Source of the DNA: Prosthecobacter dejongeii
GTDB lineage: Bacteria; Verrucomicrobiota; Verrucomicrobiia; Verrucomicrobiales; Verrucomicrobiaceae
Direction: 5' to 3'
NCBI RefSeq assembly: GCF_014203045.1
Contig: NZ_JACHIF010000005.1
Span: 310,001 to 374,000, forward strand
Length of the DNA stretch: 64,000 nt
Shown: positions 5,403 to 22,991 of the stretch, piece by piece
Layout of the letters: each line of letters opens with the position of its first letter
Numbering within the stretch: position 1 is the first letter of the stretch
The notes under the pieces: generated by a model
Told to the model about the DNA's origin: nothing
Database searches by the model: none
The model's input: only the letters and a program-made list of their open reading frames with translations
Program-made: the position numbers and the translations under genes

Positions 5403-7397
5403 TCAGTCTTCCCAGCGGCGGCCTTTGAAGCCACTTCCTGGGCCACCCTGGGGCTTGCCACCGAATTTGCCACCACCGCCACCGTAGGGTTTGCGAAAGC
5501 CACCTGGCTTGGCTCCACCACCGTAACTTGGCTTGCTGCCGAAACCACGAGGACCAAAGCTGCTGCGCTGGCCGCCACCACCGTCTTGGCGGTCGGCAAG
5601 GTTCATGCGGACGTCGCGGCCACGGTAATTGGTGCCGGTAACCGTGGTGATGACGGTTTCTACATGATCTTCAGGGACCTCCACGTAAGCGCATTTTTCG
5701 AAAATTTCGATCGTGCCGAGGGTGCCGCTGGGGATCTTCGCCGTGTTGTAGATCATGCCGGCGATGTCGCCTGGGCGGGCATTGTCCATGCCGCCAATGT
5801 TCACGAAAAGGCGCACCATGCCGGAGCGAGGGCCTTTTTGTACAAATGAGCGGGAGCGCATCGGTGCTGGGCCAAAGTCATCACGAGGTTCCTGGTAGGA
5901 AGGAGCCGGCGCATCCTGGCGGCGGGGGCCTTCATCACGGGCTGGTTCTTCGGCGCGTGGGGCATCAGCCGGACGAGGCACCGGGGGGGAGTCACCTGCA
6001 GCAGCGGTGCGGCCAGTGACGGCGGACTGCTGGCTGGGGACAAACTCACGCTGCGGCTGCTGTGGGCGCTGGTTGGCGCGGTCTTCGATGATCTGCTCAC
6101 CCTCACGGGAGAATTCCTTCATCCACAGGTCCAGCACAGCGCTGAGGATATCGGTCGGGTCAAAACCAGCGTCCAGCAGGCGCTGCACGGTGTGCTCATG
6201 CTTCGTGTAGCTGCCAGCTTCCAGGGTGGCTTTGAGCTTCTCAAAGGTCTGGTCCACGCGGGTGGCTTCCAGTTCTTCTTGGGAAGGAACTTTGGCGCGG
6301 GTGACTTTGGCATTCGTGAAGCGCTGGATGCGCTGCATGAGGTAGATTTCACGGCCTGCGACGAGGCTGACGGCGGTGCCTTTGCGCCCGGCACGGCCGG
6401 TACGGCCGATGCGGTGCACGTAGTCTTCCGTGTCATACGGAAGCTCAAAGTTCACGATGAGGTCAATGTCATTGACGTCCAGACCGCGAGCGGCCACGTC
6501 CGTCGCCACAAGTACTTCGATGGTGCCATTGCGGAAGTTCCGCATCACACGTTCACGCATCACTTGGTTGAGATCGCCATGCAGGCGGTCTGCCGCATAA
6601 CCACGGGCAGTGAGGGCATCCACCGTGTCATCCACCGCCTTTTTCGTATTGGCGAAGACGATAGTGAGGCGGGGGGAATCCATATCCAGCACGCGGCAGA
6701 GGACTTCCGTTTTGCTGCGGCCCTGCACTTCATAGTAGCGCTGCTCGATGGTCGGCACCGTCATCGCTTTTTGTTCGATGGTGATGGTGGCCGGGTTATT
6801 CGTGTACCGGTCAATGAGACGGCGGATGCGCGGATCAAAGGTGGCGGAGAAGAAGATGGTCTGGCGCTCTTTCGGCACGGCCTGCATCAGACGCTCAATC
6901 TCGTCGGCAAAGCCCATGTCCAGCATTTCGTCGGCTTCATCAAAGACGAGGGTCTTGAGGTCATCCAGACGGAGGGTGCCACGATCCACAAAGTCCAGGA
7001 TACGGCCAGGAGTTCCGACGACGATCTGGGAGCCCATCTGCAGAGCGCGGATCTGGCGGTCATAGGAGGAGCCACCGTAGATCGGTGTCGCGCGGACGCC
7101 TTCTTTGAAGGAGGCCACTTTGTGAATCTCGGCGCAGACCTGCATGGCCAGCTCACGTGTCGGGCACATGATCAGGACCTGGGTGCTGCGGCTCGTCGGG
7201 TCAATGCGATCCACGGCTGGAAGGCCGAAGGCGAGGGTCTTGCCGGAACCGGTCTGGCTCTGGCCAACGACGTCACGACCCGTGAGGGCGACGGGGATGG
7301 CCTGGGCCTGGATGGGGGAGGGTTGTTCGAAGCCTTGGGCCGCGATTGCTTTCATTAGCTCGGGCGAAAGGCCGAGATCTGCGAATGTCTTTTCCAT
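5403..7397 (-). CDS. DEAD-box ATP-dependent RNA helicase with DbpA-like domain
   Basis: 664 residues from ATG 7397. The open frame extends further upstream, but the helicase homology starts exactly at MEKTFADLGLSPELMKAI. An ATP-dependent RNA-unwinding enzyme of the DeaD/CsdA type, likely acting in ribosome assembly or cold adaptation. Visible motifs: Q-motif (FEQPSPIQ), motif I SQTGSGKT (about 47-54), PTRELA, DEAD inside FDEADEML, SAT, and HRIGRTGRAGRKG. After residue about 430 comes a charged Pro/Arg/Glu linker, then a DbpA RNA-binding-like domain (RLFVNIGGMDNARPGDIAG), and finally a Gly/Lys/Arg-rich tail ending RRWED. The long 329-nt space before the start could hold a regulated leader, as is common for cold-inducible helicases (inference). 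Confidence 0.95.
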   Translation of the reverse strand: MEKTFADLGLSPELMKAIAAQGFEQPSPIQAQAIPVALTGRDVVGQSQTGSGKTLAFGLPAVDRIDPTSRSTQVLIMCPTRELAMQVCAEIHKVASFKEGVRATPIYGGSSYDRQIRALQMGSQIVVGTPGRILDFVDRGTLRLDDLKTLVFDEADEMLDMGFADEIERLMQAVPKERQTIFFSATFDPRIRRLIDRYTNNPATITIEQKAMTVPTIEQRYYEVQGRSKTEVLCRVLDMDSPRLTIVFANTKKAVDDTVDALTARGYAADRLHGDLNQVMRERVMRNFRNGTIEVLVATDVAARGLDVNDIDLIVNFELPYDTEDYVHRIGRTGRAGRKGTAVSLVAGREIYLMQRIQRFTNAKVTRAKVPSQEELEATRVDQTFEKLKATLEAGSYTKHEHTVQRLLDAGFDPTDILSAVLDLWMKEFSREGEQIIEDRANQRPQQPQREFVPSQQSAVTGRTAAAGDSPPVPRPADAPRAEEPARDEGPRRQDAPAPSYQEPRDDFGPAPMRSRSFVQKGPRSGMVRLFVNIGGMDNARPGDIAGMIYNTAKIPSGTLGTIEIFEKCAYVEVPEDHVETVITTVTGTNYRGRDVRMNLADRQDGGGGQRSSFGPRGFGSKPSYGGGAKPGGFRKPYGGGGGKFGGKPQGGPGSGFKGRRWED

Positions 7398-7726
7398 GTA
7401 TGTTACGTGCCGGCAGGTAGGCTTCCGTGAGCGGGCAACCTGTCGCAGTAAGGGCGTCTCTGTGAGAGGAGACGGGATCACCACCAGATCTGGCGGGCTA
7501 CATGTCAAACTTCGGCCCCAAGTGGGGAAGCGGTTAAAAACCGGTTCGCAGGATTCCATGAATCGTGGAAAACGCAAGCAGTGTTTGTTAGCGGGGCGGT
7601 GTCGCAGTGGTCCTGAGCGAGGTCTGACGCCACTGCATTTCAGCACCCATCGATTTCGAATTGGGGCCATGAGACGTCTTTGTTCGTCCTTTTCGATTCG
7701 ACAATTTTAGGCGCACAGGTCTAGTC
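7398..7726. other. Divergent intergenic region, no gene seen
   Basis: 329 bases between the divergent helicase (minus) and the gene at 7727 (plus). It should contain both promoters and a long helicase leader. No convincing small ORF, tRNA, or promoter pair with good spacing was found by eye. Confidence 0.5.
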
Positions 7727-8974
7727 ATGACCATGACCTGTCGCCGTCATTTCATCCAGACTTCCGTCTCCGCCCTTTTTGCTTCCCGCCTCGGTTTGTC
7801 CGCCCAGGCGGCAGACGGCATCAAGGTACGCCAGATCACCCAGGGGCCAAAGCATCATTGGTTCGCCTATTATGACAAGGACCAGTTCAGCCCAGACAAC
7901 CGCTACGTGCTGGGCAATGAAGTGGACTTTGAGCATCGGTCTCCTACAGCAGGGGACAAGATCAAAGTAGGCATGGTGGACCTGCAGGATGGGGATAAAT
8001 GGATCGAGCTGGGCGAATCCCACGCGTGGAACTGGCAGCAGGGTTGCATGCTCCAGTGGGTGCCTGGAACGGAAAGTACCGTCATGTGGAATGACCGGGT
8101 GGAGGGCCAGTTCGTCTGCCACCTGCTGGATGTGAAGACGCAGAAAAAGCGCACGCTTCCACACCCGGTGTACAACCTCAGCCCAGATGGCAAATGGGGC
8201 ATCGCCCCAGATTTCCGACGACTCAATGACACCCGGCCAGGGTATGGTTATGCGGGAGTACCAGACCCAAACAAAGACGAGCTAGCGCCCGAGGATGCTG
8301 GGATCTGGAAGATCAACCTGGAGACAGGAGAGCAAAAGCTCATCATCACCTTCGCCCAAGCGGCAGCGATTCCTTATGAAGGGGGCTTTAGTCCGAATGC
8401 CAAGCATTGGTTCAATCACTTGTTATTCTCGCCGGATGGCAGCCGCTTCATTTTCCTGCATCGTTGGAAGGGCGATGGGGACAAAACTTTCAATACCCGC
8501 CTCTTCACGGCCAAGGCGGACGGTTCGGACCTTTACATCCTCGATCCGTTAGGCAAAACCTCCCACTTCGTTTGGAGGGATCCTCAACACGTTTTTGCCT
8601 GGGCCTTCCACCCCAGTCATGGAGATCGTTTTTACCTTTATAAAGACAAAACCCGTGAGGTCGAAGTCGTGGGTAAGGACAAAATGCCCCGCAACGGCCA
8701 CAATACCTACGTGCCGCACACCCAGAATGAATGGGTGCTGAATGATTGCTACCCGGACAAGGAGCGCATGCAGACCCCGTACCTCTACCACATCCCGACC
8801 GACCGCCGGGTGGACTTAGGGCACTTCTACAGTCCGGCTTTTTACACTGGGGAATGGCGCTGTGATACCCACCCCCGCAGCAGTCGGGATGGGCGTCTCG
8901 TCTGCATAGATTCGCCTCACAACAAAGGACGCCAGATGTATTTGATCGAGATTCACGACATCGTGGGGACTTGA
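7727..8974 (+). CDS. Secreted beta-propeller-like protein, possibly lyase-related
   Basis: 415 residues. The N-terminus (MTMTCRRHFIQTSVSALFASRLGLSAQA) has an RRHFIQ segment followed by a hydrophobic stretch, a possible Tat-type or ordinary signal peptide. The body has recurring WD40-like/PD40 segments (FSPDNRYVLG, LSPDGKWG, LLFSPDGSRFIFLHRW, SSRDGRLVCIDSPH), suggesting a propeller fold. These loosely resemble oligogalacturonate-lyase-type propellers; I cannot confirm enzyme activity. A second ATG six bases downstream is an alternative start. Many histidines and aspartates in conserved-looking turns would suit metal or sugar binding (inference). It is followed 106 nt later by ndk on the same strand. 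Confidence 0.7.
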   Translation: MTMTCRRHFIQTSVSALFASRLGLSAQAADGIKVRQITQGPKHHWFAYYDKDQFSPDNRYVLGNEVDFEHRSPTAGDKIKVGMVDLQDGDKWIELGESHAWNWQQGCMLQWVPGTESTVMWNDRVEGQFVCHLLDVKTQKKRTLPHPVYNLSPDGKWGIAPDFRRLNDTRPGYGYAGVPDPNKDELAPEDAGIWKINLETGEQKLIITFAQAAAIPYEGGFSPNAKHWFNHLLFSPDGSRFIFLHRWKGDGDKTFNTRLFTAKADGSDLYILDPLGKTSHFVWRDPQHVFAWAFHPSHGDRFYLYKDKTREVEVVGKDKMPRNGHNTYVPHTQNEWVLNDCYPDKERMQTPYLYHIPTDRRVDLGHFYSPAFYTGEWRCDTHPRSSRDGRLVCIDSPHNKGRQMYLIEIHDIVGT

Positions 8975-9080
8975 TGGCTACGCCCACGAGGGTTCAAGCC
9001 ATCATGGAGGCACCCTTCCTTCTTGCTTGACTCCATGGCACATGGACAGCACCTTCCGCGCCCTTTTTCCAACCCCCACT

Positions 9081-9506
9081 ATGGCCCAAGAAACATCCCT
9101 CCTCCTGCTGAAGCCCGACTGCGTCGCCCAAGGTCTCAATGGCGAAGTCCTCAAGCGTCTGGAGGCCGAAGGCTTCCGTGTGCGCGGCATCAAAATGATC
9201 CAGCTCACCGACGAGCTGTTGAAGGACCACTATTCCCACATCGCCGATAAACCCTTCTTCCCTGAAGTCGCCGGGTTCATGAAAAGCAAGCCCGTCATCG
9301 CCGTGGCCCTTGCCGGTGAAAATGTCATCTCCCACGTCCGCGACCTCTTGGGCCCAACGGATTCCAAGGCGGCTCCTAAAGGCACCATCCGGGGTGACTT
9401 TGGCAGCGATAAAATGACCAATGTGGTTCATGCCTCCGACTCCCCAGAGGCGGCTGCGGTGGAACTGAAACGGTTTTTCAAGGACGGCGAAATCTTCAAT
9501 TACTAA
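9081..9506 (+). CDS. ndk: Nucleoside diphosphate kinase
   Basis: 141 residues from ATG 9081; the frame is open further upstream, but family homology begins at MAQETSLLLLKPDCV. It transfers the gamma phosphate of ATP to NDPs through a phosphohistidine intermediate, maintaining cytoplasmic NTP pools. The catalytic histidine lies in NVVHASDSPE. The KPD motif near the N-terminus and the R.GD.G region (GTIRGDFGSDK) are present. Length matches the usual 135-150 residues. rpmB follows 90 nt later but has its own promoter, so the two are probably separate units. Confidence 0.97.
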   Translation: MAQETSLLLLKPDCVAQGLNGEVLKRLEAEGFRVRGIKMIQLTDELLKDHYSHIADKPFFPEVAGFMKSKPVIAVALAGENVISHVRDLLGPTDSKAAPKGTIRGDFGSDKMTNVVHASDSPEAAAVELKRFFKDGEIFNY

Positions 9507-9535
9507 CCCATCGGTGCAAAAAAATGTTTCTGAGG

Positions 9536-9563
9536 TTGACGCGCCCGCGTCCTCAGCTACTAT
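9536..9563 (+). promoter_or_regulatory. Sigma-70-type promoter of rpmB
   Basis: TTGACG at 9536-9541, a 16-nt spacer, then TACTAT at 9558-9563. The -10 box is 33 nt upstream of the rpmB ATG. The same architecture (TTGACG, 16 nt, TAGAAT) precedes rpsU at 52481, which strengthens the call. Confidence 0.7.
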
Positions 9564-9596
9564 CGCGCCCCAATTTTTTTCTCAAGGAGCACTCAC

Positions 9597-9860
9597 ATGG
9601 CCAAAGTTTGTCAAATCACCGGAGCTGGCGTTACACGCGGCCACCACATTCATCGCAGCGGTAAAGCTAAGAAGGAAGGTGGTATCGGTAAGCACATCAC
9701 CAAGCGTGTGAAGCGCGTTATTTATCCGAACCTTCGCCACAAGCGCATTTTCGTTCCTGAGCTCAATGCCTGGGTGAATGTCAAGCTTACCGCTCGTGCG
9801 CTGAAAACCATGGACAAAAACGGTGCCTTCAAGACCTTGAAGGAAGCTGGTTTGATCTGA
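9597..9860 (+). CDS. rpmB: 50S ribosomal protein L28
   Basis: 87 residues, a basic large-subunit protein. The N-terminus MAKVCQITGAGVTRGHHIHRSG and the stretch RFVPEL-like IFVPELNAWVNVKLTARALKT match bacterial L28 (usually 70-100 residues). Start ATG 9597 is preceded by AAGGAG at 9584-9589, 7 nt away, one of the few clear Shine-Dalgarno sequences in the window. Flanked by a good promoter and a rho-independent terminator, so it appears to be a monocistronic unit. Confidence 0.97.
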   Translation: MAKVCQITGAGVTRGHHIHRSGKAKKEGGIGKHITKRVKRVIYPNLRHKRIFVPELNAWVNVKLTARALKTMDKNGAFKTLKEAGLI

Positions 9861-9886
9861 TTCTTTTCGTTGTTTGTTGGTGTTTT

Positions 9887-9917
9887 AAGGGCAGGTCCGA
9901 AAGGCCTGCCCTTTTTT
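9887..9917 (+). terminator. Rho-independent terminator of rpmB
   Basis: Stem GGGCAGG (9889-9895) / CCTGCCC (9905-9911), flanked by AA and followed by six T (9912-9917). It lies 28 nt after the rpmB stop. Confidence 0.85.
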
Positions 9918-10050
9918 CATGTCCAACTGATGAGCCCGATTTTGTCTGGAAGACGTCTCTTCTTGCTGACTTGCGCGGACTCTGCAAGATCCTCCCCCTC
10001 ATCCACCGATTTTCCATCCTGATCGTATCATTTCAGATCCCCAACCCCCT

Positions 10051-11172
10051 ATGAACCTCACACGCACAGCTTACGGCACTTGGAGTGGCGGCAAATTCAT
10101 GCACTTCGGTGAAATGCTGGATGATGAACGCTACATCCGCATGATTCGCAGCGCTTTTGACCAGGGTGTCCGCACCTTTGTCACCGCCGATGTCTATGGC
10201 TCAGGACGGGCAGACTCCATGCTGGGGCAGGCGCTCCAGGGCCTGCCGCGAGATGAGTACAGCCTCGTCGGCATGGTGGGGCATGATTTCTATGAAGGCC
10301 TTCGTTCAGGTGCCAAAGGCTACCCCCGTTTTACCGAGGCCAGTCTCCACCAGCCAGAGCAATATGGCAGCTACCTGACCATGGCCACGGAGAAGTCGCT
10401 CCAACGATGCGGGGCAGATAAGTTTGACCTCCTGATGCTGCACAATCCCGATACTGTGGGTTACACCAGTGAAGTCGTGTGGGATGGCTTGACGGCCTTG
10501 AAGGACAAAGGGCTGACAGATCGTCTCGGCATCGCCCCTGGCCCGGCCAATGGCTTCACGCTGGATATGATTGACTGTTTTGAGCGCTTCGGTGACCGCA
10601 TGGACTGGGCCATGATTATTTTGAATCCCCTGGAGCCCTGGCCCGGCCAGCATGTTCTACCTGCGGCTAAAAAGCACGGGGTGGACATCCTCACTCGCGT
10701 AGTGGACTACGGCGGTATCTTCCATGATGACGTGAAACCTGGGCACAAATTCCGCGATGGGGATCACCGCACCCACCGCCCAGCGGGCTGGGTGGACCAT
10801 GCAGGTGAGAAGATGGAAAAGATCCGTCACATTGCAGACAAACATGGCCTTACCATGATCCAGCTAGCCTGTCTCTGGGACTTGGCTCAAGAGCCTGTAA
10901 AAAGCGTCGTGCCCACCCTCATCCAAGAAGCCGGCGAAGGCGCCAAGAGCATCGAGAGCAAGTTGGCTGAGCTTGCTTCACTGCCAGTCGAAAACATCCT
11001 CAGTGCTGAAGAAGTGGAGATGATCCGCCAGATCGGTGACAACACCGGTTGTATGACGCTCAAAGGAGCCAGCCAGCGCCATGAGGGGCAGGAGGCTCGG
11101 CCGGATGAATGGCCCATGCGTCCTGAATTGCTCTCACTCGCCAGTCGCTGGGATTTGGGCACTGCCTGGTAG
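10051..11172 (+). CDS. Aldo/keto reductase family protein
   Basis: 373 residues. Probably an NADPH-dependent cytoplasmic oxidoreductase of the AKR barrel fold; the substrate is unknown. The N-terminal half has the AKR pattern: a strand ending in TADVYGSGRADSMLGQAL (active-site Asp and Tyr of the D....Y motif), then DLLMLHNPD with the conserved His in the LLxLHxP strand, and KGLTDRLGIAPGPANG for the cofactor-side loop. Length is slightly over the common 310-350 residues. It lies 190 nt after the rpmB stop with no visible operon partner. A strong inverted repeat follows its stop. Confidence 0.85.
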   Translation: MNLTRTAYGTWSGGKFMHFGEMLDDERYIRMIRSAFDQGVRTFVTADVYGSGRADSMLGQALQGLPRDEYSLVGMVGHDFYEGLRSGAKGYPRFTEASLHQPEQYGSYLTMATEKSLQRCGADKFDLLMLHNPDTVGYTSEVVWDGLTALKDKGLTDRLGIAPGPANGFTLDMIDCFERFGDRMDWAMIILNPLEPWPGQHVLPAAKKHGVDILTRVVDYGGIFHDDVKPGHKFRDGDHRTHRPAGWVDHAGEKMEKIRHIADKHGLTMIQLACLWDLAQEPVKSVVPTLIQEAGEGAKSIESKLAELASLPVENILSAEEVEMIRQIGDNTGCMTLKGASQRHEGQEARPDEWPMRPELLSLASRWDLGTAW

Positions 11173-11185
11173 GCGGATTTTGTTT

Positions 11186-11234
11186 CTCGATTTGTCTGCG
11201 TGAGGCGGTGACGCAGCATGCAGACAAAGTGCGA
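11186..11234. repeat. Inverted repeat downstream of the aldo/keto reductase
   Basis: TTTGTCTGC (11191-11199) pairs with GCAGACAAA (11220-11228), and outer CTCG/CGAG can extend the stem. The loop contains a second small hairpin (GCGT...ACGC). No T-run follows, so it is a transcript-end structure or mobile-repeat remnant rather than a canonical terminator. Confidence 0.45.
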
Positions 11235-11299
11235 GAGGCGACTCATTCATAGCTGCCCCGGTTTCGTTTCGCTCTCCCGCTCTGTTCAGTGGGAAGCTC

Positions 11300-12592: not shown

Positions 12593-14029
12593 ATGCTGTT
12601 TCATACTTTAACATTCTGGGTCTTTTTTGCGCTGTTCCTGGCTATTTACTGGCGTCTGGGACTTCGTGGTCAAAATATCCTGCTGCTTGTCGCTACCAAT
12701 TTCTTTTACGGCTGGTGGGACTGGCGCTTTCTACCGCTGATTTGGTACTTAGTGAGTGTGGATTTCTTCATCGGTCGGCAGCTTGGAAGGGAGTCTCGGC
12801 CCAGCTTCCGCAAAGGCTGGGTGGCCCTGTCACTCATCTCCAATTTAGGGCTGCTTTTTGTCTTTAAATACCTGAATTTCTTTGCTGGAGAGACCTGCCA
12901 TTTGATGGGCCTCTTTGGTTATGCCTGTGACGTGCCAGGATGGATCAAAAACATCATTTTGCCTCTCGGGATCTCCTTTCACACCTTTCAGACCGTCAGC
13001 TACATCATGGACGTGTATCGGCGGAAGGAGGCCCCCGTGCAAAGATGGGTGGATTACGCCTTATTCTGCGGTTTTTTTCCGCAGCTCTTGGCAGGGCCTA
13101 TCGAGCGCAGCTCCACGCTGATGCCGCAGCTTTTTACCCCCCGTCAGCCGCTGAGCGCGGATGATTTTTCGGAGGGGCTCTATCACCTGATGGTGGGCTT
13201 TTTCAAAAAGGTGGTCATCGCCGATAACATGGCCGTCTTGGTGAATCACATCTTTAGCCTGCCTCCAGAGCAGCTCAGTGCCTGGGAAGTGTTGCTCGGC
13301 TCCTATGCCTTTGCTTTTCAGGTGTATGGAGATTTCTCCGGTTACAGCTCCATGGCGCAGGGCATCGCGAAATGGATGGGCTTTAACCTGAGCTGGAACT
13401 TTAAGATCCCGTTCCTGGCCACCTCTCCCCAGGTCTTCTGGCAGCGCTGGCACATCACCCTTTCCACCTGGCTGCGAGACTACCTCTTCATGCCGCTGAT
13501 GCGCATGACCTGGCTGCAGGGCATGACCAAGGTCTATGCCGTGGCCATCATCGTTCAGCTTGCCAGTGGCGTCTGGCATGGGGCGAACTGGACGTTTCTT
13601 TTCTGGGGCCTGCTGCATGGTGTGTACCTGTGCCTACAGTTGTGGCTGACGCGTCGCGGTTGGTTTGCGGAGCCGCCCGCCGGCAGTAGCCTGCTACGCC
13701 GCATGCCCTGGATCATCGGCACCTTTCACCTCATGTGCGTGGGCATGATCCTCTTCCGTGCCGATAACATCGGGCAGGCGGGGGCGCTGTTCATGGCCTT
13801 CGGTTCACGCTGGCAGATCACAGAGTTTGTGATTTATGGGCTCGCTCAGTTGCTGCTGTTTGCGGGGCCGCTGATGGTTTTTGAGGGCTGGCTAGAAACT
13901 AAAAAGGATCACCTCGCTCTTCTAAAAGTCTCCTGGCCCGCCCGCACGTCGGTGTATGCTGTCATGCTGCTCATGATCTGGTTCTTACCGCCAGAAAACA
14001 CCCATGAATTCATCTACTTCCAGTTCTGA
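12593..14029 (+). CDS. MBOAT family membrane O-acyltransferase (AlgI/DltB-like)
   Basis: 478 residues with about ten hydrophobic segments. Membrane-bound O-acyltransferases move an acyl group across or onto a secreted polymer; AlgI acetylates alginate and DltB moves D-alanine to teichoic acid. The conserved family blocks are visible: FAFQVYGDFSGYSSMAQGIAKWMGF, FWQRWHITLSTWLRDYLFMPL, and SGVWHGANWTFLFWGLLHG with the catalytic His at residue 329. The stop overlaps the next gene by 26 nt, so the two are translationally coupled. The downstream adenylation and carrier genes suggest the acyl donor is a carrier-bound amino acid rather than acetyl-CoA (inference). First gene of a four-gene cassette. 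Confidence 0.92.
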   Translation: MLFHTLTFWVFFALFLAIYWRLGLRGQNILLLVATNFFYGWWDWRFLPLIWYLVSVDFFIGRQLGRESRPSFRKGWVALSLISNLGLLFVFKYLNFFAGETCHLMGLFGYACDVPGWIKNIILPLGISFHTFQTVSYIMDVYRRKEAPVQRWVDYALFCGFFPQLLAGPIERSSTLMPQLFTPRQPLSADDFSEGLYHLMVGFFKKVVIADNMAVLVNHIFSLPPEQLSAWEVLLGSYAFAFQVYGDFSGYSSMAQGIAKWMGFNLSWNFKIPFLATSPQVFWQRWHITLSTWLRDYLFMPLMRMTWLQGMTKVYAVAIIVQLASGVWHGANWTFLFWGLLHGVYLCLQLWLTRRGWFAEPPAGSSLLRRMPWIIGTFHLMCVGMILFRADNIGQAGALFMAFGSRWQITEFVIYGLAQLLLFAGPLMVFEGWLETKKDHLALLKVSWPARTSVYAVMLLMIWFLPPENTHEFIYFQF

Positions 14030-14987
14030 GAATCCCAGGAAAAGCCTGTGGTCTTCCAGCGAATGGAAGGTGCTATTGATTCTGGCTTTGTTGCTCTTAA
14101 GCACAGAGATCACACTGCGTTTGATTGAACAGCGCCTTTCCATTGATGTGGCGCACATCCGCTCGGCACCTCAGCTTGCAGCTTCCATCAGCACGGCAGA
14201 TGGAGCCTCCAAAGAAGCACTCAAAATTCTCTTCATCGGAAATTCCTCCATTCGTGAAGGCATCGTGCCAGAGCAGTTGGTTTCAGAGTTTAAGACGCGT
14301 TACGGGCGGGAAGTTCGCCCTTACTTCTTCTATCCCGATGGCGGCTCCATCATGAGCTGGCGATGGGCGTGGCGGCGATATTTTAGTGACCCCTCATGCC
14401 GCCCAGATTTGGTGGTGATCTGTGGTGGCACGTCCCACTTTGACGATGGCAATACGGAGCCACGTGTCGCTGGCAGTTACTTCGTCAGTTCCAAGGATGC
14501 ACTGACCTTCGCCAGCACTGAACTTCCAAATACCGAATCTCGCCTGGAATTCATGATGGCCAAAACCTCGGTTTCCTACGCTTCCAGGCGGCGTGTGCAG
14601 CGGCGTGTCATGGACATTTTGATGCCTTATAATCGGACCGTCCTTTTTGAAATCTCTACCCTGGCCGAGAAAAAAGCCGCCAAGTCTAAAACCGATTCCC
14701 CCCCGACTTCAAAGCGTCTGAAAAGTCTGCTGGAGGACATCCGCGCACGCCACCTACAAGCGGTGGTGGTGACCGTGCCTAACCTGAACCTTTACGATGT
14801 GCCTGAAGATCGTGTGCGGACCATCGCAGAGGCAGGTGCCTATTTTGCTGACTTGAGAGCTGTGGAGGGCATCACCGCCGCGCACTTTTTTGACAAAGCC
14901 CACCTGGATGAAAAGGGCGCAGAGATCTTCACCCGCGCTTTATGCAGCTCTCTCAATCAAGCGCTCACCCAGCCGCCCAAGCCGTGA
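14004..14987 (+). CDS. SGNH hydrolase-like membrane-anchored protein, partner of MBOAT
   Basis: 327 residues. One hydrophobic N-terminal segment (residues about 22-33) anchors it, with the rest probably periplasmic. LFIGNSSIREG near residue 76-86 resembles SGNH block I with the nucleophile serine at about Ser81. DKAHLDEKGAEIF has the block V D-x-x-H pair, Asp297 and His300. VVICGGTSHFDDGN may supply the Gly/Asn blocks. Such proteins (AlgX, AlgJ, DltD) work with MBOAT enzymes to place the acyl group on the final polysaccharide. The gene begins inside the MBOAT gene and ends 30 nt before the adenylation gene. The family assignment is by motif and neighbourhood; sequence identity to DltD or AlgJ is not obvious. 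Confidence 0.75.
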   Translation: MNSSTSSSENPRKSLWSSSEWKVLLILALLLLSTEITLRLIEQRLSIDVAHIRSAPQLAASISTADGASKEALKILFIGNSSIREGIVPEQLVSEFKTRYGREVRPYFFYPDGGSIMSWRWAWRRYFSDPSCRPDLVVICGGTSHFDDGNTEPRVAGSYFVSSKDALTFASTELPNTESRLEFMMAKTSVSYASRRRVQRRVMDILMPYNRTVLFEISTLAEKKAAKSKTDSPPTSKRLKSLLEDIRARHLQAVVVTVPNLNLYDVPEDRVRTIAEAGAYFADLRAVEGITAAHFFDKAHLDEKGAEIFTRALCSSLNQALTQPPKP

Positions 14988-15017
14988 AGCCGTAGCCTCT
15001 CTATCCAGACCCTGACG

Positions 15018-16547
15018 ATGCGTGATCTAATCTCTGCCGCTTTCCAAACGCACCCGCATCTCCCCGCCCTGTCTCTGCCGCAGGGTGAAGTTTCCTACCA
15101 CGCCCTTTGGGAGGCGGCTGGCCAAGTGGCGAAGAGCCTCCAGTCCCTGCCTCCAGGCCCCATCGGCATCCTCGGCGGGCGAGAGCCTGCCATGTATGTG
15201 GGCCTGCTCGCCGCCATGCTCAGTGGCCGCGCTTACGTGCCCCTGAATGCCAAGTTTCCGCCCAGCCGCCTCGCTGAAATGCTGCGCGTGGCCGGTTGCG
15301 CAGGTGTCCTGCATGATCCCGCCTCCCAGCCCCTACTGGAAAGCCTCTTTGCCGAGGCTCAGCTTTCGCTGGCTGATACACGCACGGTTAGCGGCCCATC
15401 TCCTTTAGGGGACGTGACGCTGAGTGTCCCTGGGGCCGATGCAGGCCTAACGAAAAGTGGGACTGAAAACGAGGCCTTCGCTTACATTCTTTTCACCTCC
15501 GGCAGCACGGGCAAGCCCAAGGGCATCGGCATCACTCCTGAAAATCTTCAGACCTACCTGGCCCACGCCACCGCTGCCTATGGGGTAGCCCCTGGGGACC
15601 GTGCTTCCCAGATGTTTGAGCTCACCTTCGATCTCAGCGTGCATGATCTGTTTGTGACTTGGCTGGGCGGCGGTTGCCTCTGCGTGCCTGCGGGCATGGA
15701 CATGATGGCCCCCGCGCGCTTCATCCTCACCCAGCGCATCACCCACTGGTTCTCCGTGCCCTCCACGGCGTCCTTACTGGCGCGGCTGCGCCTCCTCCGT
15801 GAAAATGCCTTCCCCACTTTAAAACAGAGCCTCTTCTGCGGTGAGGCGCTGCCCACCGCCCTGGCGCAGCAATGGCAGGCTGCGGCACCGCATTCGCAGG
15901 TGTGGAATCTCTATGGGCCGACGGAGGCCACCATCGCCATCACCGCACATCAGGTGGGCACGGCAGGCGATGGCGAAGAACGTCCCGTCGTCCCCATCGG
16001 CCAGCCCTTTCCAGGCCACCGCACCGCCCTGGTGGTGGATGGTAAACCCGTCGCGGCAGGGGAAGCGGGGGAACTTTGGCTCTCCGGCCCTCAAGTCTCC
16101 CCAGGTTACCTCGCCAATGAAGAAAAAACTCGCGAGGCCTTTGTCACCCTCAGCGCTGACCCGGATGACTCCCGGTGGTACCGCACGGGCGATCTGGTGC
16201 GGGCGGGTGAAGACGGCACCCTGCATTACCTGGGGCGGCTGGACAGCCAGATCCAGGTGCATGGGCACCGCGTGGAGCTGGGGGAGGTGGAGACCGCCCT
16301 GCGCAGCGCCGCCGGTGGGCGCTCGGTGGCTGCCATCGGTTGGCCACGCAGTGGAGCGACCATCGAAGGCATCGTCGCCTTTGCCGAAGGCAGCGGCACG
16401 CCCGAAGACGCCCAGGCACTGCTAGCCACCCTGCAGACTCAGTTGCCCGCCTACATGGTTCCCTCACGAATCGTCTTTGTCGCAACGATGCCTTTGAATT
16501 CGAATGGAAAGACGGATAGAAACGCCTTAGCCCTGCTGCTCCCATGA
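15018..16547 (+). CDS. Amino-acid adenylation enzyme (DltA/NRPS A-domain-like)
   Basis: 509 residues. It activates a carboxylic acid, most likely an amino acid, as acyl-AMP and loads it onto a carrier protein. Standard A-domain motifs are in order: FTSGSTGKPKGIG (A3), FDLSVHDLFVTWLGGG (A4 region), LYGPTEATIAIT (A5), GELWLSGPQVSPGY (A6), YRTGDL (A7), GRLDSQIQVHGHRVELGEVE (A8) and NSNGKTDR with the catalytic Lys (A10). Stand-alone length with no condensation or thioesterase domain matches DltA (about 500 residues). The stop overlaps the carrier-protein gene start by 4 nt (ATGA). Substrate cannot be read with confidence. Confidence 0.92.
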   Translation: MRDLISAAFQTHPHLPALSLPQGEVSYHALWEAAGQVAKSLQSLPPGPIGILGGREPAMYVGLLAAMLSGRAYVPLNAKFPPSRLAEMLRVAGCAGVLHDPASQPLLESLFAEAQLSLADTRTVSGPSPLGDVTLSVPGADAGLTKSGTENEAFAYILFTSGSTGKPKGIGITPENLQTYLAHATAAYGVAPGDRASQMFELTFDLSVHDLFVTWLGGGCLCVPAGMDMMAPARFILTQRITHWFSVPSTASLLARLRLLRENAFPTLKQSLFCGEALPTALAQQWQAAAPHSQVWNLYGPTEATIAITAHQVGTAGDGEERPVVPIGQPFPGHRTALVVDGKPVAAGEAGELWLSGPQVSPGYLANEEKTREAFVTLSADPDDSRWYRTGDLVRAGEDGTLHYLGRLDSQIQVHGHRVELGEVETALRSAAGGRSVAAIGWPRSGATIEGIVAFAEGSGTPEDAQALLATLQTQLPAYMVPSRIVFVATMPLNSNGKTDRNALALLLP

Positions 16548-17320
16548 CCGCCTCCCACTCCAAAGAAGACATCCGCGCCTTTCTCATTGCCAAAACCGGA
16601 CTCAACCCCGCCAAAGCTGAGGATAGCTCCATCATCGTGGGCTCCGGTCTGGTGGATTCCTTTGGCCTCGTGGCCCTGCTGGCCGAGATCGAACAGCGCT
16701 TCGGCGTCTTCCCAGACCTCATGAGCCTGGACCCCGCCGAATACGCCACCCTGGGCGGCCTAACCAAAATTGTTTCCACCGCGCTCAACCTCCCCGAAAC
16801 CGAGGCCACCCCCAGCAGCCCCGCAGGCGCAGCAGCCACCGCCTCATCCTCGTCCGGGCCTGAAATCCAGCGCCTCGCCAAAGGCAGTCCCGAGTGGCAG
16901 CAGGTGCCCGCTTTGATGAAGGAAATGTTCCAAGGCTTTGCCGGGCAGGGCCTGCGTTTACCTCTCGTCGAAGGCGGCGAAAAACTCTGGCTGCAATCGC
17001 TGGAGCGACTCCCTGAGTCCGTCTTCCTCGTCCTCGGGGCCAGCGTCGGCGGTCAACTCGTCAGCTTCGCCAGCGCCCACTGCAAGATGCTGCCCGCCCA
17101 CCTCGGCGGCGGCATGGTGGGAGAGATCAGCTACGTCTATGTGAAGCCCGAAGCCCGCCGCCACGGCCTCGCCGGCCGCATGGTCGCCCAGATGGAAGAC
17201 TGGCTGAAAAGCAGCAAAGTCCGCTCCATCGAGATCCAAGTCCTCACCGGCAACGAAGGCGCCCTCGCCTTCTGGCGCCGCAGCGGCTTCGGTGATGAAC
17301 TGGTGCAGATGCGGAAGTGA
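16544..17320 (+). CDS. Carrier protein fused to GNAT N-acetyltransferase
   Basis: 258 residues, two domains. Residues 1-85 are an acyl/peptidyl carrier domain: SGLVDSFGLVALLAEIEQRFG carries the likely phosphopantetheine serine, Ser39, in the DS motif. An Ala/Ser/Pro linker (about 86-105) leads to a GNAT domain with the acetyl-CoA loop VYVKPEARRHGLAGRMVAQMEDW and the terminal GNEGALAFWRRSGF. DltC-type carriers normally stand alone; fusion to a GNAT is unusual. The proximity suggests the acetyltransferase modifies the carrier-tethered aminoacyl group, for instance N-acetylating it before membrane transfer (inference). Last gene of the cassette; no terminator is obvious after it. Confidence 0.85.
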   Translation: MTASHSKEDIRAFLIAKTGLNPAKAEDSSIIVGSGLVDSFGLVALLAEIEQRFGVFPDLMSLDPAEYATLGGLTKIVSTALNLPETEATPSSPAGAAATASSSSGPEIQRLAKGSPEWQQVPALMKEMFQGFAGQGLRLPLVEGGEKLWLQSLERLPESVFLVLGASVGGQLVSFASAHCKMLPAHLGGGMVGEISYVYVKPEARRHGLAGRMVAQMEDWLKSSKVRSIEIQVLTGNEGALAFWRRSGFGDELVQMRK

Positions 17321-17598: not shown

Positions 17599-20337
17599 GT
17601 GGCCAAGTTCAGCAGTGCCACCAGTGTGGTGGAGTACCTCTATGATAGCTTTGGCCGTGCCTCGGGCCAGCAGGGCGCTGGCGCTTACCCAGTGACCTAC
17701 GGATTCAATGAATATGGGGATCAAAATAGTCTCTCAACCTACAGAATACCGGGCCAGCCGGATGTGACCACCTGGGCGTTTGATCCATCCAGCGGGCTCT
17801 TGCATTACAAACAGGACGCCGCAGGCCAGCGCACCACCTATGCCTACCACACCGCTTCGGCCCAGGCGGCCACGCGCACCTGGGCGCGGCAGGTCGGGGG
17901 GCAGGCCCTAGTGAAGACACTCGTTTATGACGTCACGGGACGTGTTTCAGGCCAGACTTACAGCGATGACACCCCGCCGGTGAGTTACAGTTTCCGGCGA
18001 GATGGCAGCCTCAGCCAGTGGGTGGATGCGGCGGGCAGCCACACCTATGCAGACCACTCGCCCGAGGGCATCCCTCAGCTAGAAACCATCAGTGGCGATG
18101 TGGATGACGCTCTGGCTGGCCTGGAGATCCGCATGCCGGTGGATGGCTTGGGACGGCGGGTCGGTTACCAAAGTCAGCTCTTGCCCGAGCGCGGGCTGGT
18201 GAATGAACAGGCCGTGGTGCTGCCAGCCGCACGCTGGAGTTACGGCTCGCGGGGGGAACTGGCGCGTGTCAGCTCAGGCAGCCGCAGCATCACCTTTGAA
18301 CAGGCGGCAGATGCCACCTCCGCCACCCGCACGCTGACGCGGCAGGACACGGTGGCTTCCAGCTTGTCATTGACCACGGTGGAGGTATCCTCGCTGGCCC
18401 AGGGCATGCGCACCATCACCCACAGTCGCAGTGGTTACACCCAATCCCGCACGGTGGGGACCACAGGCACCCCATCCACCGGAGTGGACATCCGAGCGGT
18501 GGACCCAGACTTCGGGATTGGTAATTATTCCGGCCACGGAGGTTGGCGTTACACCTATGACAGCAAGGGCCAGGTGCTGCGGGATCGAAAACTGTTCACC
18601 TTGAATGGCACGAATTTCAGTGAGCTTAGTTATCGAGACATTTCGCGTAACCTCGTTGGTGATAGTGGCGGTTTTTATGAAGACAATTCTCTCAATCAAA
18701 GAACCATGAACTACCGCGACTTTACGTGGGTGGATGGCTTGGCGTTAGATCCTAGCAGCGTTATGGTTAATGACGTTATGCCCGCCGTCGAAGGAAAGTG
18801 GTTTGGGGAGGTTATCCAAGGTACCATGCAGCCACAGTGGAAGCATGTGGAGGTGACTGTTCCAGACAACGTCAGCTCTGGCCTTGTGCTGAGTCAGACT
18901 GGCAAACTCTACATTCCGCCACAGCATGATGCCCTCAGCCATGATGCCGACGGCAATCTCACCGATGATGCTCGCTGGAAATACCATTGGGATGCGGAGA
19001 ATCGGCTTAAACAACTAACCACGCAGGCCGCCGCCGTGACGGCAGGTGTGCCAGAGCTACGCTTGAGCTTCAGCTACGACGCGCAGAGCCGACGCGTGCG
19101 TAAGAAGGTGGAGGAAAAGGTCAGCAGCGTGTGGGAACTGCGCAGTGATGTGCGGTTTATCTACGATGGCTGGAACCTGATGGCGGAAGTGGAATACCAC
19201 GGCGGGGCGAAAGACGCGCCGAAGGTGAGCAGCAGCCCCGGAACAAGAGCCTACGTGAAACGCAGCTACGTGTGGGGCCCGGACGTGAGCGGGAGCTGGG
19301 ATGGAGCCGGCGGTGTGGGAGGCCTGCTAGCGCTGACACGCCATGAACGCGGCACGCAGAGTGCCGAAAGCTACTGGGTCAACATGGACCTCAACGGCAA
19401 CGTAATCGGCCTAGTGAGCAGTACACAGGCTGATCGCTACGCCGTGTATGACTACGATGGTTATGGCCTTTGCATCCGAGCAAACGAACCGGAAGAAGGT
19501 CTGAATGCTGTGAGGTTCAGTAGCAAGTATACGGATGTAGAAACCGGACTAGTCTACTACGGCTACCGCTACTACTCGCCAGTAATGACCCAATGGATCA
19601 GCCGAGATCCGATTGGGGAGAAAGGCGGGGTCAATCTTTATGGGATGGTTGGCAATGATGTGGTTACTCGGGTGGATTATTTGGGAAAAAAAAGCGTTAA
19701 GGTTGCTTTTGTTTTTGATGATAGGGCAAGTCAAAGTTTTAATAACACGATGTTTCCGGGTAACACAATGCCTGAATGGGAAGCAAGAGCTCGTTCTGCA
19801 ATGGCCGATTTGAAAGAAGTGCTTGATAGATGCAACGATTTAGGAGTCAAAATAGATTGTAGCCAAGTATACGGCGAATGGAGCCCTCTCGATTCTGCTG
19901 ACCCGTTAGGGAACGATCAATTGTTTGGTAAAAACCCGCTTAGCGGATCAGATTTACCTGGTGGCTTTGATAGCTTAGGAAACCCAGGTAAACTAAAAAC
20001 CCCGCCCCCAGCTGGGATCTATGACGCGTTAAAGGAGCTGAATAAAAAGATAAAGTGGCCTGATAGTCACTTTCATGTAATTCTGACGGGTAGATGGACA
20101 AGTGGTTTATTCAAGGTTAATGGGATGGCTGGTAGGACGGACAACCTTATTCTTTTGAATATGTCGGCTTCAAAGTGGACCCTGCCACACGAGATGGGAC
20201 ATGTTATAAAATGGATTGATGCCGCGAGCCAAAAAACTCATAGTAATGAAAAAAGCAATTTAATGTATACAGATGGATCTAGTGGCCAGCCGGATTGTCA
20301 ATGGTGTCATAAGTTAAAGGATTATATTAATAAATAA
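17599..20337 (+). CDS. 5'-truncated Rhs protein with C-terminal HExxH metallopeptidase tip
   Basis: 912 residues from GTG 17599. The Rhs reading frame already runs from 17521 (TRTTSYTYHPANHDHAGKL-like), directly after a TAG at 17518, so the true N-terminus (signal, plug and early repeats) is missing. YD/RHS repeats span about 10-550. The RHS-associated core follows (YTDVETGLVYYGYRYYSPVMTQW, then SRDPIGEKGGVNLYGM), ending near residue 696. Downstream the sequence turns AT-rich and becomes a unique tip of about 216 residues with LPHEMGHVIKW (His864, Glu865, His868), a zinc metallopeptidase signature. This is polymorphic-toxin architecture: conserved cage plus variable toxin. Expression of the truncated form is uncertain, so it may be an orphan tip kept for recombination. 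The next gene starts 1 nt after its stop. Confidence 0.8.
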   Translation: MAKFSSATSVVEYLYDSFGRASGQQGAGAYPVTYGFNEYGDQNSLSTYRIPGQPDVTTWAFDPSSGLLHYKQDAAGQRTTYAYHTASAQAATRTWARQVGGQALVKTLVYDVTGRVSGQTYSDDTPPVSYSFRRDGSLSQWVDAAGSHTYADHSPEGIPQLETISGDVDDALAGLEIRMPVDGLGRRVGYQSQLLPERGLVNEQAVVLPAARWSYGSRGELARVSSGSRSITFEQAADATSATRTLTRQDTVASSLSLTTVEVSSLAQGMRTITHSRSGYTQSRTVGTTGTPSTGVDIRAVDPDFGIGNYSGHGGWRYTYDSKGQVLRDRKLFTLNGTNFSELSYRDISRNLVGDSGGFYEDNSLNQRTMNYRDFTWVDGLALDPSSVMVNDVMPAVEGKWFGEVIQGTMQPQWKHVEVTVPDNVSSGLVLSQTGKLYIPPQHDALSHDADGNLTDDARWKYHWDAENRLKQLTTQAAAVTAGVPELRLSFSYDAQSRRVRKKVEEKVSSVWELRSDVRFIYDGWNLMAEVEYHGGAKDAPKVSSSPGTRAYVKRSYVWGPDVSGSWDGAGGVGGLLALTRHERGTQSAESYWVNMDLNGNVIGLVSSTQADRYAVYDYDGYGLCIRANEPEEGLNAVRFSSKYTDVETGLVYYGYRYYSPVMTQWISRDPIGEKGGVNLYGMVGNDVVTRVDYLGKKSVKVAFVFDDRASQSFNNTMFPGNTMPEWEARARSAMADLKEVLDRCNDLGVKIDCSQVYGEWSPLDSADPLGNDQLFGKNPLSGSDLPGGFDSLGNPGKLKTPPPAGIYDALKELNKKIKWPDSHFHVILTGRWTSGLFKVNGMAGRTDNLILLNMSASKWTLPHEMGHVIKWIDAASQKTHSNEKSNLMYTDGSSGQPDCQWCHKLKDYINK

Positions 20338-21851: not shown

Positions 21852-22991
21852 ATGAAAACCACCCGAAGGCTTGATTCTCAGGGCCATGCGATGGAGCAGC
21901 AGCTTGTTGGGATTAATGCCAAGATTGCTCCTTATCCTGCGGCGCGTTCTTGGTCGGGCGGGCGCAGGCGGGTGGTGGGAAAGGGACCCTTGGAAAGTTA
22001 CTGTTACCACGTCATGTCGCGCACCTGTGGTGGTGAGGTCTTCTTTGATGAAATTGAAAAGGAAGCGCTGAAACGGCTCATGTGGCGGCTGGCGGACTTT
22101 TCAGGCGTGAAGCTGGTGACTTACTGCATCATGGGCAATCACTTCCATGTGTTGGTGGAGGTGCCTCGCAGGGAGGTGTGGTTGCAACGATTCGCAGGGC
22201 CCACGGGTGAAGAAAAACTCTTTGAACATCTGCGCCTGCTTTATAGTAAGACCTACTTGGCCTTCCTGCGTGAGGAGTTCGCGGAACTGCGTCGCCTGGG
22301 ACTGGAAGCCCGGGTGCAAGAGAAACTGGAAGCTCTCTACAAACGTTTTTGCGACCTGTCCCTTTACGTCAAGGAGGTCAAAGAACGCTTCAGCCGTTGG
22401 TTCAACAAACGCCGGGGCCGACGCGGCACGTTGTGGATGGATCGTTTCAAAAGCGTGATGGTGGAAAGTGGGGGCGAAGCGCTGCGGACGATGGCGGCTT
22501 ACATTGATCTGAACCCGGTGCGGGCGGGATTGGTGGAAGATCTCAAAGACTATCGCTGGTGTGGGTATGGCGAGGCCGTGGGTGGTAGCCGGAGAGCCCA
22601 GCGTGGGCTGTGCAAAGTGGTGGCTAAACCTGTGGATGGATGGGTGAAACACGAGGCGGCAAAGGCCTACCGCTGCCTGCTGTATGCCAGTGGCAGGGAA
22701 GTGAGAGATGCGCAAAACACAAACGTGGTTAGGCCAGGAGTGACTGCAGAGGAGGCCCGGAAAGTATTGGCCGAGAAGGGGAAACTAAGTCCCGCAGAAC
22801 TGGTGCGGCTGCGACGAGTGCGCTACTTTACCGATGGGCTGGTGCTAGGAAGCCAGGCGTTTGTGGAGAGCGTGTTTGAAGAGAACCGAGAGTGGTTCGG
22901 CCCAAAACGCAAGGATGGAGCGCGAAAGCTGAGCGAGTGCGCGGGGAATCTGTTTTCTCTTCGCCGATTGCGAGTGCGTGCGGTGGGGTGA
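21852..22991 (+). CDS. REP-associated tyrosine transposase (RAYT, Y1_Tnp family)
   Basis: 379 residues. A single-strand DNA transposase of the IS200/IS605-related Y1 superfamily. Visible: HVMSRTCGGEVFFDEIEKEALKRLM-like start of the catalytic domain, HUH motif in MGNHFHVLVEVP, basic segment FNKRRGRRGTLW, and the catalytic-tyrosine helix region AAYIDLNPVRAGLVEDLKDYRWCGYGE. The C-terminal 120 residues are a basic helical extension seen in longer RAYTs. The complete domain set suggests it may still be active. It has no linked second IS gene, as expected of a domesticated REP transposase. Confidence 0.9.
   Translation: MKTTRRLDSQGHAMEQQLVGINAKIAPYPAARSWSGGRRRVVGKGPLESYCYHVMSRTCGGEVFFDEIEKEALKRLMWRLADFSGVKLVTYCIMGNHFHVLVEVPRREVWLQRFAGPTGEEKLFEHLRLLYSKTYLAFLREEFAELRRLGLEARVQEKLEALYKRFCDLSLYVKEVKERFSRWFNKRRGRRGTLWMDRFKSVMVESGGEALRTMAAYIDLNPVRAGLVEDLKDYRWCGYGEAVGGSRRAQRGLCKVVAKPVDGWVKHEAAKAYRCLLYASGREVRDAQNTNVVRPGVTAEEARKVLAEKGKLSPAELVRLRRVRYFTDGLVLGSQAFVESVFEENREWFGPKRKDGARKLSECAGNLFSLRRLRVRAVG

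Follow-up and report, generated by a model that had tools for sequence, protein, structure and literature searches.

How an acyl group might reach the cell envelope when the genes for a membrane-bound O-acyltransferase (MBOAT), an SGNH-like protein, a stand-alone amino acid adenylation enzyme and a carrier protein fused to a GNAT acetyltransferase stand side by side is the question raised by a locus of Prosthecobacter dejongeii (Verrucomicrobiaceae). The locus lies in a stretch of 64,000 nucleotides (contig NZ_JACHIF010000005.1, positions 310,001 to 374,000; hereafter the window). On the basis of current results, we would give a probability of roughly 0.6 that the four genes form a carrier-dependent envelope acylation cassette, in which glycine is loaded on the carrier, N-acetylated there and delivered via the MBOAT and SGNH proteins to an envelope glycan. 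The gene set, the fusion, intact motifs, an AlmE-like substrate pocket and the recurrence of the set in other genomes could all be read from the sequence. All four genes lie on the forward strand, the first two overlapping by 26 nt, the third following after 30 nt and the fourth overlapping the third by 4 nt (list of open reading frames), and the positions and tight packing reported in the initial annotation of the window were thus borne out (Table 1).

Table 1. Genes, domains and motif residues of the four-gene cassette (positions in the window)
Feature	Position	Strand	Remarks
MBOAT O-acyltransferase, PatA/AlgI type	12593..14029	+	478 aa; Pfam MBOAT 68.8 bits (cut-off 27)
MBOAT His329 codon (expected catalytic His)	13577..13579	+	His329 conserved 3/3; Trp-His in 10/10 MBOATs compared
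FIYFQF = FxYxxF acyl-shuttle motif, C-terminal; Tyr475 expected acyl-Tyr	14009..14026	+	Sequence end ...EFIYFQF
SGNH-like protein	14004..14987	+	327 aa; single N-terminal hydrophobic stretch; 26-nt overlap with MBOAT gene
SGNH Ser81 codon (GNS motif, expected nucleophile)	14244..14246	+	
SGNH Asp297-x-x-His300	14892..14903	+	
Amino acid adenylation enzyme, stand-alone, AlmE-like, predicted glycine-specific	15018..16547	+	509 aa; AMP-binding 211.9 bits
Carrier protein-GNAT fusion	16544..17320	+	258 aa; Pfam; orthologues 46% / 36% identical, near full length
Carrier domain, residues ~1-85	16544..16798	+	PDB matches: peptidyl carrier protein, D-alanyl carrier proteins
Carrier Ser39 codon (phosphopantetheine site)	16658..16660	+	Asp38-Ser39-Phe40 invariant in 3/3 fusions
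GNAT domain, residues ~106-258	16859..17317	+	Pfam 52.2 bits (cut-off 20.7)
Acetyl-CoA binding motif RRHGLA (R-x-x-G-x-A/G)	17156..17173	+	Kept in 3/3 fusions

Adenylation enzymes activate amino acids and load them on carriers, MBOATs transfer acyl groups to a tyrosine and SGNH proteins pass them to glycans. The scheme that we infer for the cassette covers the substrate, the order of steps, acetylation on the carrier, the acceptance of a carrier-bound group by the MBOAT and the acceptor. First, the AlmE-like enzyme would adenylate glycine and load it on the phosphopantetheine at Ser39 of the carrier. Second, the tethered GNAT would use acetyl-CoA to acetylate the glycyl amine, yielding N-acetylglycyl-S-carrier. 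The MBOAT would then take the acyl group off the carrier on the cytoplasmic side and move it to its own Tyr475 in the FxYxxF tail, on the outer side. Finally, Ser81 of the SGNH protein would accept the group and form an ester on a periplasmic or surface glycan. With its amine capped, the added group would carry no charge, in contrast to Dlt or Alm aminoacylation, and the aminoacyl ester would be stabilized. For the more specific proposal that N-acetylaminoacyl (probably N-acetylglycyl) glycan esters are made, with capping on an acetyltransferase-bearing carrier and a self-shuttling MBOAT that takes the carrier-bound group, the odds appeared to be about even. Surface polysaccharides are known to bear N-acetylglycyl and N-acetylalanyl groups in amide linkage to amino sugars (PMC3210612), so that the N-acetylglycyl group would not be exotic. 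No acceptor gene could be identified within the four-gene unit. The vio genes of E. coli O7, considered as a possible precedent for N-acetylglycyl on a carrier, were set aside, as there was nothing on them among the matches listed in a literature search.

The initial annotation had itself raised the doubt that the carrier-GNAT fusion might be an annotation artefact or a single-genome oddity, which was removed by orthologues in two more genomes. Strict peptide patterns, run in one scan against 84,980 species genomes, recovered a sole full-length orthologue (L017), in another member of the Verrucomicrobiaceae, SSF29, with 46% identity over residues 1-258. The second orthologue (36% identical to that of the window) was found in G542, which belongs to another family of the same order and has the four genes in the order seen in the window (L035): MBOAT (6026-7510), SGNH-like protein (7485-8426), adenylation enzyme (8419-10035) and carrier-GNAT (9995-10786). 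The first two genes again overlap by 26 nt, and the MBOAT and adenylation enzyme are 32% and 41% identical to those of the window. In SSF29, the MBOAT (63%) and SGNH (48%) genes are on contig C9, and those of the adenylation enzyme (55%) and carrier-GNAT (46%) are on contig C23. The two contigs share copies of a single repeat (252 bp at 98% and 187 bp at 99%). On C9 it follows the SGNH gene at a distance of ~0.4 kb; on C23 it precedes the adenylation gene by ~1.7 kb and is overlapped by a 353-aa frame of REP/Y1 transposase type (by eye). The SSF29 set was probably split through rearrangement or insertion; since both contigs end near the gene pairs, it may still be contiguous. Thus, each of the three genomes with the fusion also has an MBOAT gene with an overlapping SGNH-like gene, which answers in the affirmative the question, posed with the initial annotation, whether the fusion recurs beside such genes, and the recurrence in two other genomes places the gene set beyond chance. 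In samples that overlap with one another, the full-length fusion was present in 1 of 387 genomes of the phylum and 1 of 384 of the class (the window genome in both cases; the phylum, order and class scans scored at most six first-look candidates per genome, so that misses are possible), in 3 of 386 of the order, in 2 of 68 of the family Verrucomicrobiaceae and in 1 of 74 of the family of G542 (G542 itself). It should be noted that a genome of the same genus, G418, whose flanking genes are 86-94% identical to those of the window, has a scar (L033, about 11024-11260) in place of the ~4.7 kb of the window; all that is left of the cassette there is 137 bp of the GNAT gene (82%, with gaps), and the scar adjoins a conserved RRM gene. 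Most simply, the cassette was present in the common ancestor of the window genome and G418 and was then lost in G418.

Further investigation of the adenylation enzyme pointed to its likely substrate. Both the AMP-binding domain and its C-terminal domain were matched in Pfam, and the NCBIfam amino acid adenylation domain scored 344.9 bits, above its cut-off. The DltA equivalog model gave 283 bits against a cut-off of 559.85, which does not qualify the enzyme as a DltA. Among solved single-domain entries, AlmE (4oxi) was the top match with 263 bits, versus 208 for the best DltA, and entries of non-ribosomal peptide synthetases (NRPS) with two adenylation domains outscored AlmE only in sum. With the pocket segment alone, AlmE was again first (98.6 bits; DltA, 57), and comparison by eye gave agreement with AlmE at seven of nine positions (the other two having Phe in place of Leu and Leu in place of Phe), as against five of nine for B. 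cereus DltA. AlmE activates glycine and has Leu248 and Cys316 as glycine guards, and a neighboring Leu of AlmE is Thr in DltA (PMC11253843). Aligned to AlmE, the pocket of the window enzyme has Leu206, Cys274 and Leu298. The ten-residue code, D-L-H-F-L-C-L-I-A-K, is identical in all three cassettes, and the chance of such identity at the eight variable positions was ~0.004 relative to random columns of residues 200-320; the DltA-like enzyme from a separate dlt-like set of SSF29 has D-L-M-V-W-C-T-V-A-K. In a tree of 16 rows, which included four multidomain NRPS matches and left out other multidomain ones, the cassette enzymes formed a clade (93/90; 94% of bootstrap trees), with the DltA-like and NRPS rows elsewhere. 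Judged by these comparisons, the enzyme is nearest to the glycine-specific AlmE rather than to DltA, the analogue first chosen for it, and its substrate is probably glycine.

The two halves of the fusion were also characterized. The PP-binding match of the carrier (17.6 bits) is under the cut-off of 20.8, and this weak call is backed by the conservation of Asp38-Ser39 in the three fusions. R-x-x-G-x-A/G is the acetyl-CoA binding motif of GNATs. It reads RRHGLA, RRHGVA and RNLGLG in the three fusions, all of which fit the GNAT pattern R/Q-x-x-G-x-G/A, and the alignment places Arg205-x-x-Gly208-x-Ala/Gly in each. Matches of the fusion among solved structures were a peptidyl carrier protein, D-alanyl carrier proteins and acetyltransferases. 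The acetyl-CoA motif of the GNAT is thus intact, and the activation of an amino acid and its loading on the carrier, as proposed in the initial annotation, are supported. The three fused GNATs formed one clade (97/97) in a tree of 17 rows (four of cassette type and 13 background), and the closest other GNAT by tree path, with weak support (71/78), was the stand-alone GNAT of G821, a genome of another order, which likewise has an intact CoA-binding motif. Foldseek with the model of the fusion returned generic acetyltransferases, the model being too weak to use. Neither the carrier-GNAT nor the SGNH protein had a match in the plasmids searched. The GNAT of curacin synthase remains a precedent. 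A role as malonyl-carrier decarboxylase, by analogy with MadA, was considered and dropped, as that activity sits in a hot-dog domain and not in a GNAT (PMC8666670).

Two other roles of the GNAT should be weighed against on-carrier acetylation. The domain might act in the cytoplasm, with no involvement of acetyl-CoA, and move the carrier-bound glycyl or aminoacyl group to an amine, for example that of an amino sugar nucleotide; some GNAT-fold enzymes are aminoacyl transferases (PMC2922099), and amino sugars with an N-acetylaminoacyl group in amide linkage are known from surface polysaccharides (PMC3210612). However, a CoA motif that is intact in all three fusions and in G821 would be expected of an acyl-CoA user, and such a route would make the MBOAT with its overlapping SGNH-like gene superfluous, yet the pair accompanies all three cassettes, so that we regard this role as quite improbable. 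On the other hand, AcuA acetylates acetyl-CoA synthetase, and the GNAT could by this model be a regulator that acetylates the catalytic Lys498 of the adenylation enzyme, with plain Dlt/Alm-like glycylation as the output. GNAT control of AMP-forming synthetases does exist (PMC11255334), but the fusion is to the carrier and not to the synthetase, which favors the cargo of the carrier as substrate, and regulation would leave unexplained why the GNAT relative of G821 sits with a class II synthetase-like ligase, a member of another enzyme family. A regulatory GNAT therefore seemed highly improbable.

The next question is whether the MBOAT could receive a group prepared on a carrier. The role of the catalytic His of MBOATs has been described, as has the FxYxxF motif, whose Tyr is auto-acetylated in PatA and passes the group to the SGNH partner; in Dlt, the motif sits on DltX, and MBOAT/SGNH pathways other than Dlt are presented as having no carrier and evidently using acyl-CoA (PMC12148441). 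The tail was found in all three cassette MBOATs and was absent from the MBOAT of the dlt-like set of SSF29 and from the G821 protein. As such the tail is an ordinary feature, since 29 of the 30 background MBOATs from the order also have it. The window MBOAT scored 166.7 bits with the DltB-type model TIGR04091 (cut-off 375) and has an acyl-shuttle tail of its own, which DltB lacks (PMC12148441); the initial comparison with DltB is not borne out as it stood. In a tree of 40 rows, including 30 background rows taken as a subset of the order matches, the window and SSF29 MBOATs paired (100/100) beside a type from contig C10 of the window genome (98/97), that genome (6.0 Mb in 22 contigs) having four MBOATs. 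The G542 MBOAT fell in another clade (97/98), and none of 200 bootstrap trees united the three cassette MBOATs. Most economically, the export pair beside this same activator was either acquired on two occasions or swapped in situ, with the gene order kept.

With respect to the SGNH protein, the GDSL/SGNH match of the window protein (18.9 bits) is under the cut-off of 32.9, and the weak call is backed by Gly-Asn-Ser and Asp-x-x-His, both conserved in the window protein, its SSF29 homologue and the paralogue of the window genome (L030). The G542 protein has Gly-Asp-Ser and, near its end, Asp-His without the two-residue spacing; it was named from its position, its motif and a match to DltD (20.7 bits) just under the cut-off of 22.7. 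Comparison of the window and G542 proteins with hhalign gave a probability of 57%, in a C-terminal block only. No DltD match of the window protein could be observed at E<=5, and kinship with DltD was rejected (hhalign, 12.5%).

We also analyzed the neighborhoods of 62 further MBOAT loci from the order. A median of ~7.5 kb was visible per side, and in 56 of the loci the stretch downstream of the MBOAT measured 3 kb or more. They comprise 57 stretches (order matches outside the window genome plus one more from G542) and five from the window genome or SSF29. This GNAT type was found in none of the 62, and none had a carrier and an adenylation enzyme together. An AMP-binding protein was present in two (one acetyl-CoA synthetase and one partial AMP-binding match), and a carrier match in four, of which G199 and G217 were examined. 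As a positive control, the scan recovered every cassette part in the window and in G542. In G199, of the same genus as the window, an SGNH-like gene overlaps that of a tailed MBOAT by 26 nt and is itself overlapped by the gene of a 472-aa protein in which Pfam matched a carrier domain (36.4 bits); this run (L150, 7597-11300) is possibly another case of a carrier-fed shuttle MBOAT. In G217 (L152, 5230-8993), a 78-aa carrier and a 612-aa protein (FkbH-type-like by eye) precede a tailed MBOAT. Thus, carriers beside tailed MBOATs are not confined to the cassette, which supports a carrier-fed MBOAT and makes the theme broader than first described.

A more distant set in G821 (L041, 6886-10086) bears on the GNAT. 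It is one tight run of a carrier, an amino acid:[carrier protein] ligase, the GNAT relative and an MBOAT-like protein, in which the carrier opens the run, the first three genes overlap and the GNAT lies between the ligase and the MBOAT-like gene. The ligase matched NF005479 with 165.7 bits, below the cut-off of 357; it is class II synthetase-like and unrelated to the cassette activator. The MBOAT-like protein has no Pfam match and gave 48.5 bits with TIGR04091 (cut-off 375). This GNAT type occurs in 1 of 146 genomes of the order of G821. Because a loadable carrier, the GNAT type and an MBOAT-like protein are shared despite the unrelated activator, the G821 set is the best indirect evidence for a GNAT that acts on a carrier-bound amino acid.

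Several other runs with carrier or adenylation genes were observed. The dlt-like set of SSF29 (contig C57; L029, 4623-8944) consists of a DltD (Pfam, 144 bits), a stand-alone carrier (5846-6091), a DltA-like enzyme and an MBOAT without FxYxxF, and G444 (L084) has a similar carrier-adenylation-MBOAT run. In G548 (L099, 2274-6706), a carrier and then an adenylation enzyme come after an 858-aa protein, part of which is MBOAT-like (own profile, E 3e-7) and which also gave a GDSL match under the cut-off; a single chain may here combine MBOAT and SGNH. In G520 (L098, 205-4019), an adenylation enzyme and a carrier are followed directly by a 363-aa protein, for which Pfam gave no match, and then by a formyltransferase. 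Finally, G496 encodes, at a contig start (L097, 187-2904), a 905-aa protein made of an adenylation domain close to that of the cassette, a carrier and a 285-aa stretch without family match; an SGNH assignment of this last part, suggested by the look of a motif, was rejected (no Pfam match at E<=5; hhalign probability <1%).

These neighborhoods allow a further possibility to be judged, namely that two independent activities share the locus: the adenylation enzyme and carrier-GNAT would produce a modified sugar or a small metabolite, and the MBOAT/SGNH pair would O-acetylate the same polymer from acetyl-CoA. This would agree with the acyl-CoA use held for carrier-free MBOAT/SGNH pathways (PMC12148441), with the closest paralogue pair of the window genome (L030), which stands alone, with the two halves on different contigs in SSF29 and with an MBOAT half that appears exchangeable. 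However, neither a carrier with an adenylation enzyme nor this GNAT type was seen at any of the 62 other loci, two of the three cassettes are unbroken and share one gene order, their MBOATs being of different clades, and carriers stand beside MBOATs elsewhere, in the dlt-type sets of SSF29 and G444, in G548 and G821, and next to the tailed MBOATs of G199 and G217. Two separate activities are thus rather unlikely.

Some observations weigh against a cassette that N-acetylates glycine on its carrier and feeds it to the MBOAT. First, the AlphaFold models were poor (mean pLDDT 52 and 43). Second, MBOAT/SGNH pathways other than Dlt are said to be carrier-free (PMC12148441), and the nearest MBOAT/SGNH relatives (contig C10, L030, of the window genome) have no adenylation or carrier genes. 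Third, the cassette is rare (3 of 386 genomes in the order sample), the G542 SGNH-like protein could not be aligned with that of the window by blastp, and the exact place of the G542 MBOAT, which has a long branch and an unusual composition, is unsure. In addition, the G821 MBOAT-like protein lacks the tail and has no recognized SGNH beside it, and the three fused GNATs and that of G821 grouped together in only 34% of bootstrap trees. Finally, the sister of the cassette adenylation enzymes, found in G496, has a carrier and an unnamed domain as fusion partners but no GNAT, so that a GNAT is not always the partner of this enzyme type.

Around the cassette, promoter and terminator candidates showed no excess over shuffled sequences. 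Directly 3' of it, positions 17599-20337 encode a 912-aa protein, RHS/YD-repeat-like by eye (Pfam RHS_repeat below the cut-off), and the second gene in this direction has no Pfam match. A Y1 (IS200-like) transposase is located at 21852-22991 of the window.

If the proposed chemistry is true, an uncharged, capped amino acid would join the known envelope acyl groups, and shuttle-tyrosine MBOATs could be carrier-fed, against the printed generalization that tailed MBOAT/SGNH pairs use acyl-CoA. The carrier genes by tailed MBOATs in G199 and G217 would then mark further carrier-fed shuttle MBOATs, and a tractable test of which MBOAT feature sets the donor would be at hand. Envelope acylation also looks modular, as one activator occurs with MBOATs of two clades and one GNAT type, of weak kinship, beside two unrelated activators. 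The cassette is a mix of known surface-decoration parts in a combination new to the open-access literature searched, in which no description of a carrier-GNAT fusion with MBOAT/SGNH was found among the top matches of partly narrow queries.

Comparison with known systems places the cassette between several of them. PatAB and AlgI-AlgX O-acetylation likewise have a tailed MBOAT followed by a membrane-anchored SGNH protein; the window MBOAT has the catalytic His and C-terminal FxYxxF, and its partner the SGNH Ser, Asp-x-x-His and an N-terminal hydrophobic stretch, with a family match below the cut-off and a different spacing in G542. According to the literature, these systems draw on acyl-CoA and do without a carrier (PMC12148441), whereas the cassette has a carrier and an adenylation enzyme. 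The amino acid:[carrier protein] ligase sets (NF005479; G821) share a carrier, an amino acid ligase, a GNAT relative and an MBOAT-like protein, but in G821 the activator is class II synthetase-like, GNAT and carrier are separate genes, no SGNH protein was recognized and the MBOAT tail is absent. AlmEFG, which glycylates lipid A in Vibrio cholerae, is alike in its stand-alone adenylation enzyme, glycine-type pocket, carrier and diderm host. It differs in that AlmG is the final transferase, and MBOAT/SGNH and GNAT are not mentioned in the available part of its description (PMC12930378), whereas the carrier of the cassette is fused to a GNAT. For the products of the cassette genes, Pfam matched only MBOAT, GDSL (weak), AMP-binding, carrier and GNAT, with no AlmG among them, the AlmG model and the rest of the genome lying outside this search. 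Dlt (DltABCDX, teichoic acid D-alanylation) has the same four kinds of part, namely adenylation enzyme, carrier, MBOAT and SGNH protein. In the cassette, however, the pocket is AlmE-like and not DltA-like, the MBOAT has its own FxYxxF tail and needs no DltX (which itself was not searched for), the SGNH protein has no DltD match, and the carrier is fused to an extra GNAT in all three cases and so is not a stand-alone DltC (dltC model, 22.6 bits; cut-off 52.35). Thus, the cassette appears to work like Dlt and Alm and is filed with neither, because some of the defining features tested for each were not found in it.

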